Shown in pieces: positions 20,365-61,100 of a stretch of 64,000 bases of DNA. Position numbers and translations under genes: made by a program. The stretch comes from Anoplopoma fimbria. Its lineage: Eukaryota; Chordata; Actinopteri; Perciformes; Anoplopomatidae. Position 1 is the first letter of the stretch; each line of letters begins with the position of its first letter. Location of the stretch: assembly GCF_027596085.1 (NCBI RefSeq), contig NC_072458.1:18274384-18338383 (forward strand), given 5' to 3'. The notes below the pieces were generated by a model, which worked only from the letters and a program-made list of their open reading frames with translations, ran no database searches and was not told where the DNA came from.

Positions 20365-33373
<13,009 letters not shown>

Positions 33374-35640: not shown

Positions 35641-37745
35641 CAGAGATAGTATGTCAAGAGAAAATCATAAAATGTCATTAAAAGTCATATTCTATGTCAT
35701 GAATAAGTCAGAGTATAATATGTGGAAAAAGTCATAAATTGTCAAAGTATAGTATGTCATAAAAACTTAATTGTATAGTATGTAAAAAAAAAAAAGTAAT
35801 CGTATAGTATGTCGAAAAATCTTAGTCATAGTATAGAATGTTGAGAAAAATCATATTATAGTATGTCGAAAAAGTCATAGTATAGCATGTCAAAAAAATC
35901 ATAAAAAATAAAAAGTATAGTATGATGAAAAAATCATTAAAAATAAAAAGTATAGTATGCTGAAAAAAATCATTAAAAATAAAAAGTATAGCATGTGAAA
36001 AAAACATAAAAAATAAAAAGTATAGTATGTCGAAAAAAATCATTAAAAATAAAAAGTATAGCATGTGGAAAAAATCATAAAAAAGTCATACTATGGTATG
36101 TCGAAAAAGTCATAGTATAGCATATCGAAAAATCTTAAAAAAGAAAAAGTGTATGTCAAAAAAGTCATAAGTCATAAGTCATAGTGTAGCATGTCGAAAA
36201 AATCTTTAAAAAGTAATATTATAGTATGTCATACAAGTCATAGTATAGTATGTCAAAGAAAATCATAAAAAAGTCATAGTATGTCGAAAAAATCATTAAA
36301 AAGAAAAAGTTTAGTATGTCATACAAGTCATAGTATGTCGAATGTTGAAACAATCATAAAAGTCATAGTATAGTATGTCGAAAAGATTCAAAGTATAGTA
36401 TGTCAGAATATAATACAATATAGTATGACGTAAAAGGTAATGAAAAAGTTATATATTGAATGTCGAAAAAAGTCATAGTATAGCATGTCAAAAAAATCAT
36501 AAAAAATAAAAAGTATAGTATGATGAAAAAATCATTAAAAATAAAAAGTATAGTATGCTGAAAAATTCATTAAAAAGTATTTCTATATTATGTCTTGAAA
36601 AATCATGAAAAAGACGTAGTATAGTATGTTGAGTTATAATGACTGATGAAATAGCATGTAAAAAAAAATAAAGTCGTAATATAGTATGTTATAAAAGGTT
36701 ATAAAAAGTCATAGTATAGTATGTTGAAAACACTGACAGAAATATCATAGTATAATATGTTAAAAAAAAGTTTAAAAAAGTTATTATATACCATGTCGAA
36801 AAAAGTTCTAAAAAAGTATAGTTTGTCGAATATATCATATAAAGCCATGGTATAGCTTGTCGGAAAAAATGATAAAAGGGTCATATTAAAGTATGATGAA
36901 AAAAGTCATAAAGTCATAGTATATTAAAAAAAGTCATAAAAAAGTCATAAAAAAGTCATTAAAAAGTCATAAATAAGTCATATTACAGTACATCGAAAAA
37001 AGTCATAATATAGCATGTCATAAAAAGTCATAAAAAAGGCATAGTATAGTATGTCAAAAAATGATAGAAAATTCATAGTAAGTATGTGGAGAACAGTCAT
37101 CCAAACATCATAGTATAGTAAGTTGAAAAAAGAAATTGTACAGTATGGTTAAAAAAGTAACAAAAAAGTCATAGTATAGCATGTCGATTTTTTGTAAAAA
37201 AAAGTCATAGAATAAATTGAAAAAAGTCCTGAAAAAGTCAAAATAGTATGTCGAAAAAAATCGTAGTATAGCATGTCCAAGAAAGTCATAGTATAGTATG
37301 TTTGGGAAAAAAAAGAAAGTCACAGTAAGTTGAATATACCATATAAAGTCATGTCAATAAAAATCATAAAAAAGTCATAGTATAGTATGTTGAAAAATGA
37401 AGAAAAAAAATCATTGTATAGCATAATTAAAAAAGTCATGAAAAAGTCACAGTATAGTACATTTTAAAAGTCATAAAAGCTTATGTCAAAAAAAGTGATA
37501 CAAGTATGGAGTGTCAAAAGTCACAGTATGGCATGTCTTGAAAAGGCATAATTGTCAGAATTTCAGTATAGTATGTCATAAAAAAAATGTATAATATAGT
37601 TTTTAATAAAAAGTCATAGTATGTCAAAAAAAAATGTCATTAAAAATGTCAGTATAGTATGTCATAAAAAGACAGTATAGTATGTATTTAAAAGTCATAA
37701 AGAAGTAGGTCATTAAAAGTAATAATAAATAATGTCAGAAATTGG
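35640..37745. repeat. AT-rich satellite based on 'agtcatagtatagtatgtcg'
   Basis: About 2.1 kb of degenerate tandem repeats built from agtcatagtatagtatgtcg, aaaaa(g/t)tcat and aaaaataaaaagtatag with a unit of roughly 30-40 bp. Longer higher-order blocks recur: about 35878-35960 and 36478-36560 are nearly the same. No protein is encoded. Confidence 0.88.
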
Positions 37746-38493: not shown

Positions 38494-38499
38494 TTTATT
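38494..38499 (-). terminator. Poly(A) signal of the secreted repeat-protein gene
   Basis: TTTATT on the plus strand (AATAAA on minus) lies 14 nt past the stop codon at 38515-38513, a very short 3' UTR. Confidence 0.6.
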
Positions 38500-38512: not shown

Positions 38513-41408
38513 TTATTCATCCAAGGACACCTGCTGCACCTATTTGAAGAAGAAGAAGATTAGAAATCAGGTTTAATCTTATAGATCAGCAAGAAATAAT
38601 CAAGTACTCACCTGCAACGGTCCAAAACGTGGCCTGACCCTCTTCCATTTGGCAGAGGGCCGCTGGGGGGCCACATTGGCCTGCTGCGGGGAAGTCAGCC
38701 GCTGGGGGGCCACGTACGCCTGCTTCAGTGAAGACGGCCGCTGGGGGGCCATGTAGGCCTGCTGGGGGTCCACGTACGTCTGCTTCGGAGAAGACGGCCA
38801 CTGGGGGCCACGTCGGCCTGCTGCGCGTAAACGAAGGCTGGGGGCGAACAGTCGTCTGCTGGTGCCTGCTAGGGGCTGCCAGGTGGCCACGACGGGGAAG
38901 ACGGCCGCTGGGGGTCACGTACGCGTTCTACGGTGAAGACGGCCGCTGGGGGTCACGTACGCGTGCTTCGGAGAAGACGGCCGCTGGGGGCCACGTCGGC
39001 CTGCTTCGGCGAAGAAGGCCACTCGGGGCCACGTTGGCCTGCTTCGGAGAAGAAGGCCACTCGGGGGCCACGTTGGCCTGCTTCGGAGAAGAAGGCCACT
39101 CGGGGGCCACGTTGGCCTGCTTCGGAGAAGGCGGCCACTCGGGGGCCTGCTTCGGAGATGTCAGCTGCTGGGGGTCCACGTACGCCTGCTTCGGAGAAGA
39201 CGGCCGCTGGGGGGCCACATCAGCCTGCTGCGGGGAAGTCAGCTGCTGGGGGGCACGTAGGGCTGCTTGAGTGCCACGTAGGCCTGCTTCGGGGAAGTCG
39301 GCAGCTGGGGGCCACGTGGGACTGCTTGAGTGCCACGTACGCCTGCTTCAGTGAAGACGGCCGCTGGGGGCCACGTAGGCCTGCTGGGGGTCCACGTACG
39401 TCTGCTTTGGAGAAGACGGCCACTGGGGGGCCACGTCGGCCTGCTGCGGGGAAGTCAGCTGCTGGGGGTCCACGTACGCCTGCTTCGGAGAAGACGGCCG
39501 CTGAGGGGCCACGTACGCCTGCTGGGGGGCACGTACGCCTGCTTCGGTGAAGACGGCCGCTGGGGGCCACGTAGGCCTGCTGGGGGCCACGTACGCCTGC
39601 TTCGGAGAAGACGGCCGCCGAGGGGCCACGTACGCCTGCTGGGGGGCACGTACGCCTGCTTCGGTGAAGACGGCCGCTGGGGGCCACGTACGCCTGCTGG
39701 GGGTCCACGTACGCCTGCTTCGGAGAAGACGGCCGCTGGGGGCCACGTAGGCCTGCTGGGGGTCCACGTGCGCCTGCTTCGGAGAAGATGGCCGCTGGGG
39801 GCCACGTGGGACTGCTTGAGTGAAGACGACCGCTGGGGGCCACGTAGGCCTGCTGCAGGGAAGTCAGCTGCTGGGGGCCACGTACACCTGCTTCGGAGAA
39901 GACGGCCGCTGAGGGGCCACGTACGCCTGCTTCGGTGAAGACGGCCGCTGAAGGGCCACGTACGCCTGCTTCGGTGAAGACGGCCGCTGGGGGCCACGTA
40001 GGCCTGCTGGGGGCCACGTACGCCTGCTTCGGAGAAGACGGCCGCTGAGGGGCCACGTACGCCTGCTGGGGGGCACGTACGCCTGCTTCGGAGAAGACGG
40101 CCGCTGAGGGGCCACGTACGCCTGCTGGGGGGGCACGTACGCCTGCTTCGGTGAAGACGGCCGCTGGGGGGCCACGTACGCCTGTGGCTTTTTCACACTT
40201 CCGTCCTTCTGGTCAGCAGGTTCTTTCAGTCGTCTGATAGCGTAGCCACCAAAGTGTTGAGGGATGTTGTGGGTTGTAGTCGGGGCGAAGTGCTGACCAG
40301 AAGTCTCCGACCTGCTGGTCCCAGAGGAAGGGAGGTTACCGGCTCCCTGCGTCGGGTTTCTGCTTTTCCAGGACGCTTGGAGAGAACTCGTACTGCTGGG
40401 GATCTGCTCAGTGGAGGTGTAGCTTGAGAGAGTCTTTCCACTGTGTGGCTGGAAATGTGAAGGTGTAGAGGCTACAGAGCTACGACGTAAAGGCACTCTT
40501 CTACCAACGGCACTGGCTGATGTTCTCGTCCGAACAGGGATTCTGTTTGGTGCAGCAGCATCGGTGCTAGAAAAGCTGGAAGACTTCATAGACCTAAAAT
40601 AACCGTTTTGTCCAGAGTAGGCTGGAGTTTCAGCAACAGCTGGAACTTTTTGTTCTGCTGCCTGGTGGGAGGCAGATTTAAAGGAGTACGTTTCCCTCGG
40701 ACTTTGAAGAGATTCAGAACTGCTTGACTGATCTATACCAGTTCTTGGTGAGCCCTGCTGGACTGGCCAAGTTCTCGTCTTGCTAATCGGATTTTGAGCG
40801 TACTTACTAGCAGTACTAGCACTAGCAATAGGAGTAGAGAGTCTGAATGGCTGCTTTTTTGGCATCTTTTGCACAGTTTCCTGATTCAAGTTAGTCGTTA
40901 GCCAGTTAGGTTTTGACACCGAGCTTCTCAGCGCCAACCTGACTGAAGCATAGGCACTATCTGGTTGAGAAACAGTTTGTGTGTCGCCACTACTGGGAAA
41001 TCTCTGACCATAACCACCGCTAACGGCTGTGTCTGTGTTGAGGCTACTGCTCTGGGCCGAGCCGGTAGAAACAGAAGACCGTCTGAGTTGATTCTGGGGA
41101 TAACTGCCAGCAAATCCACCACCATGTTGCAAGAAGCCAACATTTGCGATGCTGTTTTGTCTCTGAGCTGCAACAGAAACAAGAGTATAAATCCACAGCT
41201 AGGAAATCACACCAATAAATGATAGCAACATCCGAGTTAGTTGCTCACCTTGTTGAGCCAACAAACAGCACACATGCTCTGCTTGAACTAAGCAAATCAG
41301 CAAGATCCTGCACAAAAATACAAGACATCCAGTCACAAATGGTACAGAAACTCAACAAATACTGAGAATAACTGCAAATACTTACCCCAAATTAACTCCA
41401 CAAACCAT
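38513..41408 (-). CDS. Unrecognised secreted Ser/Pro-rich protein with a frame-variable coding minisatellite
   Basis: I do not recognise this gene. Four exons on the minus strand have good splice sites: 41408-41386, 41307-41249, 41167-38612 and 38539-38513 (TAA). Start context is aaaATGG. The first 17 residues (MVCGVNLGILLICLVQA) form a signal peptide. About 310 residues rich in Ser, Thr, Gln and basic residues follow, with no known domain, ending in GGYAIRRLKEPADQKDG. Next comes an array of 13-residue units QAYVAPQRPSSPK and shorter QAYVPPQ pieces. The last exons encode KWKRVRPRFGPLQ and VQQVSLDE. As written, the frame from exon 1 stops at 39866-39864 (461 residues); the C-terminal end is in another frame, so summed exons are 2665 nt, not a multiple of three. 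Either indels are assembly errors or the gene is shifted. Few small exons, TATA-like element and signal peptide suggest a tissue-restricted extracellular product (egg-envelope or mucin-like), but that is inference. Confidence 0.7.
38650..40185 (-). repeat. GC-rich coding minisatellite with 38/39-bp units
   Basis: On the minus strand the 39-bp unit is CAG GCG TAC GTG GCC CCN CAG CGG CCG then TCT TCT CCG AAG. Many units have a C-run one base shorter (plus strand ctgggggcc against ctggggggcc or ctgaggggcc), giving 38 bp and a frame change. Shorter ~20-bp pieces (tacgtggcccccagcagg) are interspersed. Roughly 40 TACGTG/CACGTA cores occur. Long open frames exist in several frames on both strands. 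Confidence 0.9.
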
Positions 41409-49946: not shown

Positions 49947-52496
49947 TCACACGTCAGCGCTCGAGGAGACCTGTGATAACCTGGGGTCAGAGTCGATCTC
50001 GAAGCGGTAGTGGTAGCCCTCCAGCACCTCCGTGCAGGCGTCCCGCATGTCGTTGATGCGCTTCTTGATGCCCCTGCGGTTGAGATAAAGTACAAAAAGG
50101 AAGACGAGGCCTATGAAGCCCAGGACGACGCCCAAGAAGACGTAGGAGGTCTGCAGAGCGAGGTCGGCCCCTGCACCCCACTGGTGGCATCCCAGAGTCA
50201 ACGAGCCCACAGCGAGCATGGACGTGTTCCTCATGCTGGCGGGGAAAGCGCACACAAGGTCCTCGGCATCGCTAATGCGTCCCTGCGATCTGTTGAGCCA
50301 CAGAGCGAAAGGTTCGATTCCGCACGAACACGTGAACGGGTTTTCCCCCAGCAGAAGGTCCGCTCCGGACAGGGAGTCCAGCTCTCGGAGACCCTCCTCG
50401 GGCACCGTCTTGAGGGCGTTGAGGGTCAGGTCCAGCTCCTCCAGACGCTCCAAACCCGAGAAGGTGGCGTTGTGGATGGCCACCAGGGAGTTGTTGGTGA
50501 GCTGGAGCCGCAGCAGGTTGCTCAGGTGGGAGAAGATCCGCGAGGGGAGATAGATGAGGCCGTTGTGAGAAAGGTCCAGTTTCTTCAGGTTCCCCAGGGA
50601 GCTCCAGCGGAGAGACGTGGACAAGTCCATCACCGACGAGTGGTTGTAGAGGGCTCGGCTCAGGTTCAGCTCCCGCAGAGACTGGTTCTGCACCCTGAAG
50701 GCCTCGGGGTGAATCACTGACAGCTGGTTGTTGCTCAGATCCAGGGAGCGGAGGCTGCGGAGCCCGGCGAAGGTTAGGGATTCCACCTCGGAAATTCTGG
50801 ATTTTGAAGAGATCAATGAGAAATCATTCACACTTTAATATCACATATAGGGAGCAAGAGAAGTGGGGGAAAAAATGATATCTGCAGACATAAAAACAGG
50901 ATTAATTAAGTCTTGGATCAAAGCTTGAACACAGTTTTTATATTAAGTCAATTTAATTACGCTTTGAAAGTCTGCAAAGCCATGTGCCATGTAACCAAAA
51001 TGATTTAATATTTCAGTAACAATGAGACACAACTGATGACTGAAACTGTATTTTGCTATTGAAACAAACTGTTCTATCTCATAAGAATCATTTGTTTTAC
51101 ATTACATTACATTACAGTCATTTAGCAGACGCTTTTATCCAAAGAGACTTACAATAAGTGTATTCAACATAGGTATTCAAGAGAACTACTAGTCACCAGA
51201 AGTCATAAGTGCATCTCCTTTCTTAAACAAGCATCTAAGAGCATAAACCAGAGCAAAAGTACAGAAACAAACTAATACGAATACAATAAGTGCAACAAAC
51301 TAATACGAATAAGTGCTATAAACTAATATGAATACAATAAGTGCAACAAACTAATATGAATACAATAAGTGCAACAAACTAATATGAATACAATAAGTGC
51401 AACAAACTAATATGAATACAATAAGTGCAACAGACTAATATGAATACAATAAGTGACTAATATGAATAATAAGTGCAACAAACTAATATGAATACAATAA
51501 TGCAACAAATAAGTGCAATAAGTGCACTAATATGAATACAATAAGTGCAACAAACTAATATGAATACAATAAGTGCAACAAACTAATATGAATACAATAA
51601 GTGCAACAAACTAATATGAATACAATAAGTGCAACAAACTAATATGAATACAATAAGTGCAACAAACTAATATGAATACAATAAGTGCAACAAACTAATA
51701 TGAATACAATAAGTGCAACAAACTAATATGAATACAATAAGTGACAAACTAATATGAATACAATAATGCAACAAACTAATATGAATACAATAAGTGCAAC
51801 AAACTAATATGAATACAATAAGTGCAACAAACTAATATGAATACAATAAGTGCAACAAACTAATATGAATACAATAAGTGCAACAAACTAATATGAATAC
51901 AATAACTAATATGAATACAATAAGTGCAACAAACTAATATGAATACAATAAGTGCAACAAACTAATATGAATACAATAAGTGCAACAGACTAATACAATA
52001 AGTGCAACAAACTAATATGAATACAATAAGTGCAACAGACTAATATGAATACAATAAGTGCAACAAACTAATATGAATACAATAACTAATATGAATACAA
52101 TAACTAATATGAATACAATAACTAATATGAATACAATAACTAATACTAATACAATAAGTGCTAAGTGGAAGGCTCAGGGTAGCACTTCTTGTCTTCCCCA
52201 TGCTCTGCAGGACTACAGCCAGCAGCAGACTCTTACCTGTTATTGCTCAGAGACAGGTTGGTCACATTCTCCAGCCCTCTGAACGACTCCGGACCGATCC
52301 GACCGATGAGATTCCCGGTGATGAACAGGTTCCTGGTGTACCCGGGGATCCCGGCGGGGACGCTCCGCAGCTCTCTGGAGACGCACTTGACGGTGTGAGC
52401 CGCCTCGGAGCACTCGCAGCGCGGCGGACACGACGACGCGTACACGGAGCCGAGCAGAGCGCACAGAAAGACGCACTGTGCCAACAGATCCAGCAT
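49947..52496 (-). CDS. tpbg: Trophoblast glycoprotein (5T4/Waif1)-like leucine-rich-repeat membrane protein
   Basis: Two exons on the minus strand, 52496-52237 and 50796-49947, join in phase 2 (LSNN-R-ISEVES) and give 369 aa. A signal peptide (residues 1-20) is followed by an N-terminal LRR cap with CPPRCEC (23-29), LRRs of LxxLxLxxN type, a C-terminal cap starting NPFTCSCGIEP, a membrane segment (about 302-323, VFLGVVLGFIGLVFLFVLY) and a short cytoplasmic tail ending SSADV, a likely PDZ ligand like the SDV end of mammalian TPBG. Several N-x-S/T sites are present. Family members sit on the cell surface and inhibit Wnt/beta-catenin signalling through LRP6. I chose the start directly before the signal peptide; an upstream in-frame ATG at 52583 would bury it. 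The protein is shorter than human TPBG (420). Which fish paralog (tpbga, tpbgb or tpbgl) cannot be settled here. Confidence 0.9.
51098..52192 (-). mobile_element. SINE/LINE-tail element carrying an expanded 28-bp minisatellite, in the tpbg intron
   Basis: The 51098-51290 part, reverse-complemented, reads 'gtcgctttggataaaagc'-type sequence ending in (aatgt)n, the 3' tail I recall for L2-related fish SINEs/LINEs (here with gtctctttgg). The middle (about 51255-52165) is roughly 32 copies of 'aactaatatgaatacaataa' plus gtgcaaca. A short copy with about four units lies at 60394-60710 in the opposite orientation. It fills most of the 1440-bp tpbg intron. Confidence 0.75.
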
Positions 52497-52738
52497 GGTG
52501 GGGAGAGGATGAAGGGAGGAGAAATACGCACAGGGGAGGAGAGGAGAGGGGAGAGAAGGAGAGAAAACACACAACACCAGCACAGATGGAACAGGATCAG
52601 CTCCTCCGGTGCGTCATTCTCCTCCGTCGTCCCGGTTGGGAATGCGCCTCAACTTTGCATCTCTGCAGAAAAAGAAGTGTGTGGCCGGGAGGCAGGGGTC
52701 TGATTTCCATGAGAACAGAACTGGGGGTCGCTTCTGAT

Positions 52739-58135: not shown

Positions 58136-61100
58136 TCCTGAGACACAACAGGTTCAAGGCATACCAGTAGAATCACCCCTGAGCCCCTGGGATCACGGTG
58201 AGAAACCTCCTTCACAAGTTCCAGCCCTACGTCTTGTGGAGGCTTTGAAGAGAGCAGCTTTAGGTTATAGGGTTTGGGCCTTTAGGGCAGATAAAATGCT
58301 GACATTTTTGGACAGAAGAGGCAAAGTGCTGAACTTTTTGGCCGGACAACAAAGTTAGACAAATCGTTGGAGGATTTGTCGTCATCCACCTGTGCCAGCG
58401 AAAATCGTCTGGAAAACGCGAGACAGAGCGGCGGAGCCCTTGCTGCTTTGTTTGGAAACGAATAAAATGACTAAAAGCGTTGAAGAGAAAGAGAAAATGA
58501 AGAGAAAAAAATGGCCAGTGTCCCTTTAATCATATAAACATTCGCAATATTCTTGAGCGGCGTTATGCACAAGCTGCAACGTCAGTGCAAGGTGCCACAC
58601 TCGTTGTCTTCTTGATTCTTCAGAGTAAGTTTTGTTCGTCTGCCCTCTGGCGTATTAGAGAATAATGATAGGAGCGTTGAGCATAAGCGCCTTTGTGCGT
58701 GCTCGGAGCTTGCGGGCCATCTGTGGAGGCTCGTGCTACGGTGGCAAGTGTGAGAATAAACAAAGCTTTGTACCAACAGTCTACATCCAGTGAGTCAGAC
58801 CAGTTTAACCTCAGCAGTTAACATCATTTCTGAAAGACTGGACTTGTTACCCTTTCTTACCTGATGTGTTTTCCATGGATCAGAGCGAGGAGGCAGAGGT
58901 TGACCATGTTCCACGACGTGCTGTTTTCATACCGCATCAGATTCAGAGCCATGGCGACATGTGAGTGACAGTTGTCACAGCAGAGGTTGTGCTTTTGGAG
59001 AAAACAAAAGTAGAAATCATTCCTGGTGTTTTTCTTATTTCATAAAGTAAATAAAAGACTCGCCCACAAGTGCCTTTTCTTACCATCCTGTGCTTATACT
59101 CCTCTGAGGCATCGTGCACCGCTGTGTCCCAGGCATTGGAGCCACTAGCGTAGACTTTGCTAACGTCAAGCATCCAGTACCTGCAGTCGAAGAGGAAAAA
59201 CAAACTGTAGTGTTGTGTAGGACGGACGTCAGGAAACAGGATTGTTTCTGACTATTTCTCTTTAGCTAATTTGTTCACTGAAAGATCAAGTTAATCAGAA
59301 AAAACGAAATATTTTAATTTACTCACTTTGTTGGTTTTCCAAAGGCCATGTTGTCTTCCTGCAAACAAGAAAAAATTGTTTGTTGCTATTTAAATTTCAA
59401 AAACAGATTAAGGGATAATTTGGGCAAATAATTTAATTTAATTTATGCAAACATAGCCAGACACCATGTTTACGTTCAAACCTGTGTTCATTTGTTGCCA
59501 GGAAAAAAATGAAACATTAAATCGGCCCTATGAAAGATTTTATAACTCAAGAACTAGTTGTGTAATTTTTGTCCATTGTTTATGAAATGGTTGACGCAAC
59601 TAAAGTATGTTATGTTGGTTGTAAGAGACAGAAAAACAATAATAAACCTGTGTTTTTAGCCAGATGTTTGGCAAAAACTGTGTCTGAAAGTACAGATGGA
59701 GAACAAAGAAGTGGAATATTTAGCATGAGGGGTTTGATACATTTCTTTGCTGTAAAACAGAGTAACCATAGGAAGCCATTGGAAGTGTCCCTGCAACTGC
59801 CATCTTCTGTAAAGGAGCAAGTTGCAAACTTTTCAGCAGCTACATTCAACCTTAACGGTTCTGATACCTAAAACATTACTTTACTTTTGTTAAAACAATT
59901 TAGGCTCAAACTAACCGTCCTATTGGCCTTCATTGTGCTTAAGTAGAGCCAGTAGCGCTATATTTAATTTCACATAGAGGCCATAATGTGCCGCAGCGCC
60001 AACCACAGTCATTACTCACTGAGACAAAGTAAGGTCCAGCAAAGTCCCGGATGACACCAGTGGAAGTGCAGATTCCCATGTGGCCAATGAATGGAACCAG
60101 CCATCTGAAGAAAAAAAACACAAACAACATTTTACAACATTGAAGTAGTATAGTGGACAGACAAGGGCATGTAATGTAATTTGCATATACAGCACTTATT
60201 GAGCTTATTGTAGTCAGATAGGACTACAATGCATGAGTGACATGGCTGTAGGGGGGGGATAGAGAGTGAAAACAATGTTGCTTTTCTCCCAAAACCAACT
60301 TTTCAACTTGTTGCTAAATTCAACATCTCTTGTCTTAATACAGCAGTCCTCAAATATGCTTGTTTTTGACTCACACATATACCATCACCTCTTCAAGAAG
60401 TGCTACCCTGAGTCTTCCACTTAGCACTTATTGTATTCATATTAGTTTGTTGCACTTATTGTATTCATATTAGTTTGTTGCACTTATTGTATTCATATTA
60501 GTTTGTTGCACTTACTTATTGCACTTATTCGTATTAGTTTGTTTCTGTACTTTTGCTCTGGTTTATGCTCTTAGATGCTTGTTTAAGAAAGGAGATGCAC
60601 TTATGACTTCTGGTGACTAGTAGTTCTCTTGAATACCTATGTTGAATACACTTATTGTAAGTCGCTTTGGATAAAAGCATCTGCTAAATGACTGTAATGT
60701 AATGTAATGTATAGTGGACAGACAAGGACATGTAATGTAATTTGCATATACGGCACTTATTGAGTTTATTGTAGTCAGATAGGACTACAATGCATGAGTG
60801 ACATGACTGTAGGGGGGATAGAGAGTAAAAACAATGTTGCTTTTCTCCCAAAATCAACTTTCCATCTTGTTGCTATTCAACATATCTTGTCTGTGCAATA
60901 CAATAGTTATAATAGTTTCTGTCTGTATATATAATATTTCAGTTACTGTGGATTCTTTACTGTTTTGTTTATTGCTCATTTGCTTATTTATAATACTTAT
61001 TTACTATGTTTCTTGTGTGCACTATCCTCTATGCTGCTGTAATCCTGTAAATGACCAATAAAGGATTATCTTATTGTATCTAGTCCTCATATATATGCTT

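Follow-up and report, generated by a model that had tools for sequence, protein, structure and literature searches.

The sablefish gene and its annotated product

The window, by which we mean the whole 64,000-nt stretch of DNA analysed, contains a minus-strand gene of sablefish (Anoplopoma fimbria) with the exons listed in Table 1. The interval 38612-41167, which the first-pass annotation had delimited from the letters alone as a coding minisatellite, is exon 3 of this gene, and its boundaries coincide with a splice acceptor and a splice donor. About 0.8 kb downstream of the gene's AATAAA lie approximately 2 kb of AT-rich imperfect nested tandem repeats of the AAAAAAGTCATAGTATAG type (window 35741-37737).

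Table 1. Features of the sablefish gene and its array, in window coordinates
Feature	Position	Strand	Remarks
Exon 1	41386-41408	-	Start codon and first part of the signal peptide (MVCGVNLG); donor GTAAGT
Exon 2	41249-41307	-	Remainder of the signal peptide; acceptor GTGCAG, donor GTGAGC
Exon 3	38612-41167	-	Unique Ser/Pro/Gln-rich part, minisatellite, then the tail AKWKRVRPRFGPLQ; acceptor TTGCAG, donor GTGAGT
Coding minisatellite	38680-40181 (first to last unit start)	-	43 units; consensus AYVAPQRPSSPKQ (39 nt) and AYVxPQQ (21 nt)
TGA	39864-39866	-	Ends the annotated 461-aa model P0001; reached in a shifted register
Degenerate array stretch	38832-38962	-	Holds a non-repeat insert; stops also interrupt the other registers
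TAG	38930-38928	-	In the main register, which leads into the next unit
TAG	38871-38869	-	In the register leading into unit 38817
Last coding exon	38513-38539	-	VQQVSLDE and stop, putatively in the AYVAPQ register; acceptor AAATAG before GTGCAGCAG
AATAAA polyadenylation signal	38494-38499	-	

Splicing of exons 1 to 3 and translation to the first stop codon (TGA, 39866-39864) reproduced an NCBI gene model, here P0001, at 461 of 461 residues. The window and the annotated assembly therefore share run lengths in this part of the gene. P0001 is annotated at window 39864-41408 (minus strand) as a 461-aa 'microtubule-actin cross-linking factor 1, isoforms 6/7-like' protein. It was also the closest protein among the matches listed for the exon-3 open reading frame (ORF), with 98% identity over 99% of ORF residues 1-345, and neither the exon-3 ORF nor P0001 had a match in Pfam. 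P0001 is probably cut short by a run-length artefact, and its MACF1-like name is probably wrong. A protein search with the C-terminal ORF returned 80 candidates, none with an E value up to 0.001, and a search with the read-through protein found no second sablefish protein among the 15 matches listed. When the genome (652.0 Mb in 7151 contigs) was searched, at least 15 matches of the gene were found, all at this locus, and no paralogue that could serve as an internal control was found outside it.

The protein has a signal-peptide-like start, a short conserved core and a long low-complexity body rich in Ser, Pro and Gln. The predicted structure had a mean pLDDT of 48.7 and one helix (residues 2-33), beyond which it was unstructured, and this model suggests that the protein body is probably unstructured. 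Judged by these features, the product is likely to be a secreted, extracellular low-complexity protein.

A gene family in spiny-rayed fishes

At least 62 distinct family proteins, including P0001, were collected from two protein searches (56 and 15 matches; numbered P0001-P0062). The named relatives are from what we take to be spiny-rayed fishes, namely lumpfish, eelpouts, snailfish, rockfish, tuna, basses, groupers, wrasses, sticklebacks and notothenioids. The sablefish gene and family members such as stickleback LOC120825920, lumpfish LOC117739189 and Cebidichthys P0022 have a common start, MACGVHLGILLICLVQAEHV, and a common core with the consensus FAPTRTHxIPQRFGGYAIRRLKEP, and many members also have C-terminal YVAPQ-type units and a tail containing W and basic residues (W-basic tail). 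Using rough patterns, at least three YVxPQ-like units were found in 35 of the 62 proteins among the matches listed, and a C-terminal W-basic tail like AKWKRVRP in 26 of those 35. The nine array-bearing proteins without this tail were P0001, P0003, P0013, P0037, P0045, P0048, P0049, P0051 and P0055. There were 14 YVxPQ-like matches in P0022 and 17 in stickleback P0057, both of which reach the W-basic tail. Two stickleback records of 568 and 527 aa (P0057 and P0058, respectively) may be isoforms or come from different populations.

Unlike the sablefish assembly, most array-bearing relatives stay in one register. Because they remain in the AYVAPQ register through to the W-basic tail, the ancestral register is most likely the one in which the sablefish array is entered and left. 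When the 62 proteins among the matches listed were scanned from residue 201 for shifted-register motifs, at least two matches were found only in P0001 and P0040 and a single one in P0031, close to its end, so the shifted peptides were not seen as a conserved feature of these relatives. P0040, a 264-aa Gasterosteus aculeatus gene model with a start unlike that of P0057, changes register inside its C-terminal array. P0040 and P0031 suggest that such shifts may arise elsewhere too, and they may represent alleles, pseudogenes or model errors. The last residues of P0018, P0019 and P0034 are AAGVLG or AAGFLG, which correspond to another frame of the last exon than VQQVSLDE, and on comparison of these endings the tail past KWKRVRP looks unconstrained.

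The automatic names carried by family members (zonadhesin-like, adhesive plaque matrix protein-like, MACF1-like) were not matched by any Pfam domain above the cut-off in the six members tested. Matches below the cut-off in P0022 (Lysostaphin_N) and P0057 (Drf_FH1, YLP) were taken for low-complexity matches. Six LOC names of relatives were looked up in the literature, and none was named in the papers searched; the gene family is apparently undescribed. A literature search for coding minisatellites with homopolymer frameshifts turned up two papers, neither of apparent relevance.

Structure of the array and its reading frames

Tandem Repeats Finder reported an array at 38893-40126 with a period of 38 and 32 copies, together with overlapping rows. 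Cutting the units at the A-Y-V codons gave 43 units, compared with 40 rows in an earlier cut; four compound rows were split and a 15-nt piece at 38832 became part of the 107-nt unit at 38924. The final unit, of 69 nt, extends below 38680 into the unique tail. Unit lengths were mostly 38/39 nt and 20/21 nt. The first-pass annotation had described the 38- and 39-nt units, which were found, and had passed over those of 20 and 21 nt. The plus-strand forms GGGGG, GGGGGG and GAGGGG that it distinguished are all present, and the array is indeed entered and left in one peptide register lying in different nucleotide frames (phase 0 for the first unit, phase 1 for the last). In the tally of all 43 units, 20 were 1 nt short and none was 1 nt long.

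The units are arranged head to tail inside a coding exon of a conserved gene, as is expected of a variable number tandem repeat (VNTR), and the real feature here is an ordinary coding minisatellite in a gene family. The copy number of the array could shift by steps of 39 or 21 bases with the frame kept. The shifted frames had also been described as mostly free of stops. Each minus-strand frame does contain just 3 to 5 stops in 529 codons, but this is uninformative. Because none of the six frames of the consensus 39-mer has a stop, open shifted frames carry little weight; among random 39-mers of array composition that were open in one frame, 61% were open in both others too, and the array even contains antisense ORFs of 202-225 aa.

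Position of the missing bases

The units were divided into those with an uninterrupted C-run, defined as a C-run between GTG, GTGG or GTGA and AG, and the 17 others, in which the run is interrupted, shorter, ended by T, A or G, or of the GTGGA-C5 (GGA-C5) kind. Short units made up 19 of the 26 in the first class and one of the 17 in the second (Fisher P 2.1e-5). Thirteen of the 19 have C5 where C6 would keep the frame, four have C6 where C7 would keep it and two are GTGA-C5 units (38962 and 38924), in which the missing base could be C or G and, in 38924, is unplaceable. Fisher P was 3.1e-5 without these two units and 5.6e-4 with both moved to the other class. All six GGA-C5 runs were in frame. 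The sole short unit among the other 17, at 39038, has C4 where C5 would keep the frame. The indels were all deletions (20 losses and no gains), and nearly all of them fell in uninterrupted C-runs. There was no simple cap at five C, because four of the short runs are C6 where C7 keeps the frame.

The seven full-length runs among the 26 uninterrupted ones were the first two, the last three and two in the interior (39440 and 39224). Given seven of 26, the probability of these five outer runs all being full length was 3.2e-4, a value calculated post hoc for a grouping chosen after the pattern had been seen; the comparison of full-length runs with distance from the array edge gave a one-sided P of 0.028. 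Uniqueness of the run context separated full from short runs weakly (P 0.31, 0.20 and 0.03 at 25, 40 and 60 compressed bases per side, respectively), and several short runs sit in fairly unique context.

Run length and relatedness of units

Two 98-nt blocks, at 39440 and 38817, are two substitutions apart, both outside the runs. Their two long runs are nevertheless C6 then C5 in one block and C5 then C6 in the other block. Close pairs of long-run units, compared at 20 compressed bases per side, were discordant in run state in three of six cases at a distance of up to 1, 4/8 at up to 2, 4/10 at up to 3 and 5/21 at up to 4, where the discordance expected if state is independent of relatedness is 0.41 and the numbers are small. 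The closest pairs were thus discordant about as often as chance predicts, as would be expected of errors or of very rapid slippage. When pairs at a distance of up to 4 were admitted, 16 of the 21 similar unit pairs agreed in run state, and such agreement would also be expected from the spread of real short units. For 18 distinct 33-nt pieces (of 28), pN/pS was 0.67 in the AYVAPQ register, 0.74 in one shifted register and 1.51 in the third, so this selection test did not separate the AYVAPQ register from the first of the shifted ones.

Origin of the frame changes

We regard the frame toggling as an assembly artefact within a real, ordinary coding minisatellite, with a probability of about 0.85. 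In the fish, the runs would be complete, at six or seven C, and almost the entire array would read in one register, AYVAPQRPSSPKQ. Nanopore R9.4.1 base-calling would have shortened the C-runs, and short-read polishing would have restored them mainly at the array ends, where unique sequence anchors the reads. Both the frame toggling and the 461-aa gene model would follow from the shortened runs.

According to the available part of PMC10320756, the sablefish assembly reported in 2023 (653 Mb) was produced from four pooled individuals using R9.4.1 flow-cells and Guppy 3.4.3. Flye and Racon were used, and Pilon was run twice on Illumina reads that had been mapped with bwa mem. The paper also names sablefish Illumina reads under BioProject PRJNA869752 and an older Illumina/PacBio assembly, GCA_000499045.2. 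From the species, the size and the identical gene model P0001, we infer that the window belongs to this assembly. For bacterial assemblies, the available text of PMC8812927 gives homopolymer-length errors as the most common residual errors of long-read assemblies, and states that most short-read polishers depend on alignment, which is unreliable in repeats, where homopolymer errors often persist. Homopolymers were consistently truncated in an early human assembly, in which one base-caller capped runs at about five and another overcalled short runs (PMC5889714, in the part available). The sablefish array resembles the cases in these two papers, as far as their available text goes, in that losses in uninterrupted runs survive inside a tandem repeat. 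It differs in being known from an assembly alone, and Guppy 3.4.3 is not among the base-callers measured in the available part of PMC5889714. Unit 39038, which is short in a run that would have just five C, runs counter to the artefact reading. So do the four C6 runs that lack a seventh C, the weak separation by context uniqueness, the near-equal pN/pS values of two registers, the agreement of unit pairs at the loosest cut, the overcalling of short runs by one base-caller and the register change in P0040. The earlier suggestion of one long repeat protein hidden by homopolymer errors has good support as to the errors, from the occurrence of losses only, their position in C-runs, the R9.4.1 assembly and the registers of the relatives; as to the one protein, a TAG remains (see below). 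Apparent frame changes in coding minisatellites of Nanopore R9 assemblies need verification before a biological meaning is given to them.

The short units could instead be real if replication slippage contracted the C-runs and unequal exchange spread them; this allele or species would then make a truncated 461-aa secreted protein, with the rest of the exon decaying. The main-register TAG at 38930-38928, and perhaps the second TAG, would suit this reading, as would the comparable shift in stickleback P0040 and the agreement in run state of the similar unit pairs, and one-C gains are described for the GC-rich coding VNTR of human MUC1 in the available part of PMC5843638. We nevertheless consider this unlikely, given that the losses are spread across many different unit types with no gains, that unit lengths need no other frame-breaking change (with the change in the 107-nt unit unplaceable), that the near-identical 98-nt blocks differ in run state in both directions and that full-length long runs occupy both ends of the array (two at the entry, three at the exit); the splice sites, tail and AATAAA are also intact. 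It is very unlikely that the C-runs are real and hypermutable, such that about half of the units are contracted by one base and alleles differ in the site of the register change and in protein length. If true, this would be a many-site counterpart of MUC1-fs. The human MUC1 VNTR and the sablefish array are both GC-rich coding minisatellites with one-base changes located in a C-run of the unit, but in the available part of PMC5843638 MUC1-fs has an extra C in a single unit (C7 to C8), detected by SMRT sequencing, whereas 20 sablefish units are without one base in an assembly only.

The second possibility raised by the first-pass annotation, that the locus truly makes several functional peptide registers, whether through slippage alleles or ribosomal frameshifting, is highly improbable. 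Shifted frames are open for up to 330 codons, a property expected of a consensus unit open in all six frames, and the near confinement of shifted-register motifs to P0001 and P0040 among the 62 proteins argues against it; beyond the assembly, P0040 and the hint in P0031, nothing was found in its favour. Toggling of this kind, if real, would make the locus an extreme example of a frameshifting VNTR. Equally improbable is the removal of parts of the array by splicing, which would keep out-of-frame or stop-bearing units from the mRNA. GT and AG dinucleotides are frequent in the units by inspection and splicing could deal with the TAG codons, but the predicted proteins of the relatives, mostly gene models rather than cDNA, contain the array.

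The degenerate stretch

An assembly artefact of run length alone does not account for the whole array. Run length cannot remove the first TAG in Table 1, because its register leads into the next unit. The other TAG is perhaps in the main register as well, but only on the condition that the 107-nt unit lacks its base at a point upstream of this codon. With a TAG, or two, in the main register, a single uninterrupted protein is not established. The stretch that contains them may be a mosaic consensus of the four pooled fish, a real truncating allele or a region affected by splicing.

Other features of the window

A probable anillin gene was found at 22448-23338 on the plus strand, where the Pfam Anillin_N match had an E value of 3.7e-5 and 24.7 bits against a cut-off of 27. 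A leucine-rich repeat (LRR) gene at 49947-52613 on the minus strand, presumably trophoblast-glycoprotein-like, is seemingly split by an intron holding a 28-bp minisatellite at 51266-52085. UnaL2 LINE 3' elements (Rfam RF00436) were found at 51112-51165 (minus strand) and 60644-60697 (plus strand). These two elements each lie near an array of the same 28-bp unit in opposite orientation, the first near that in the LRR gene and the second near one at 60424-60514.
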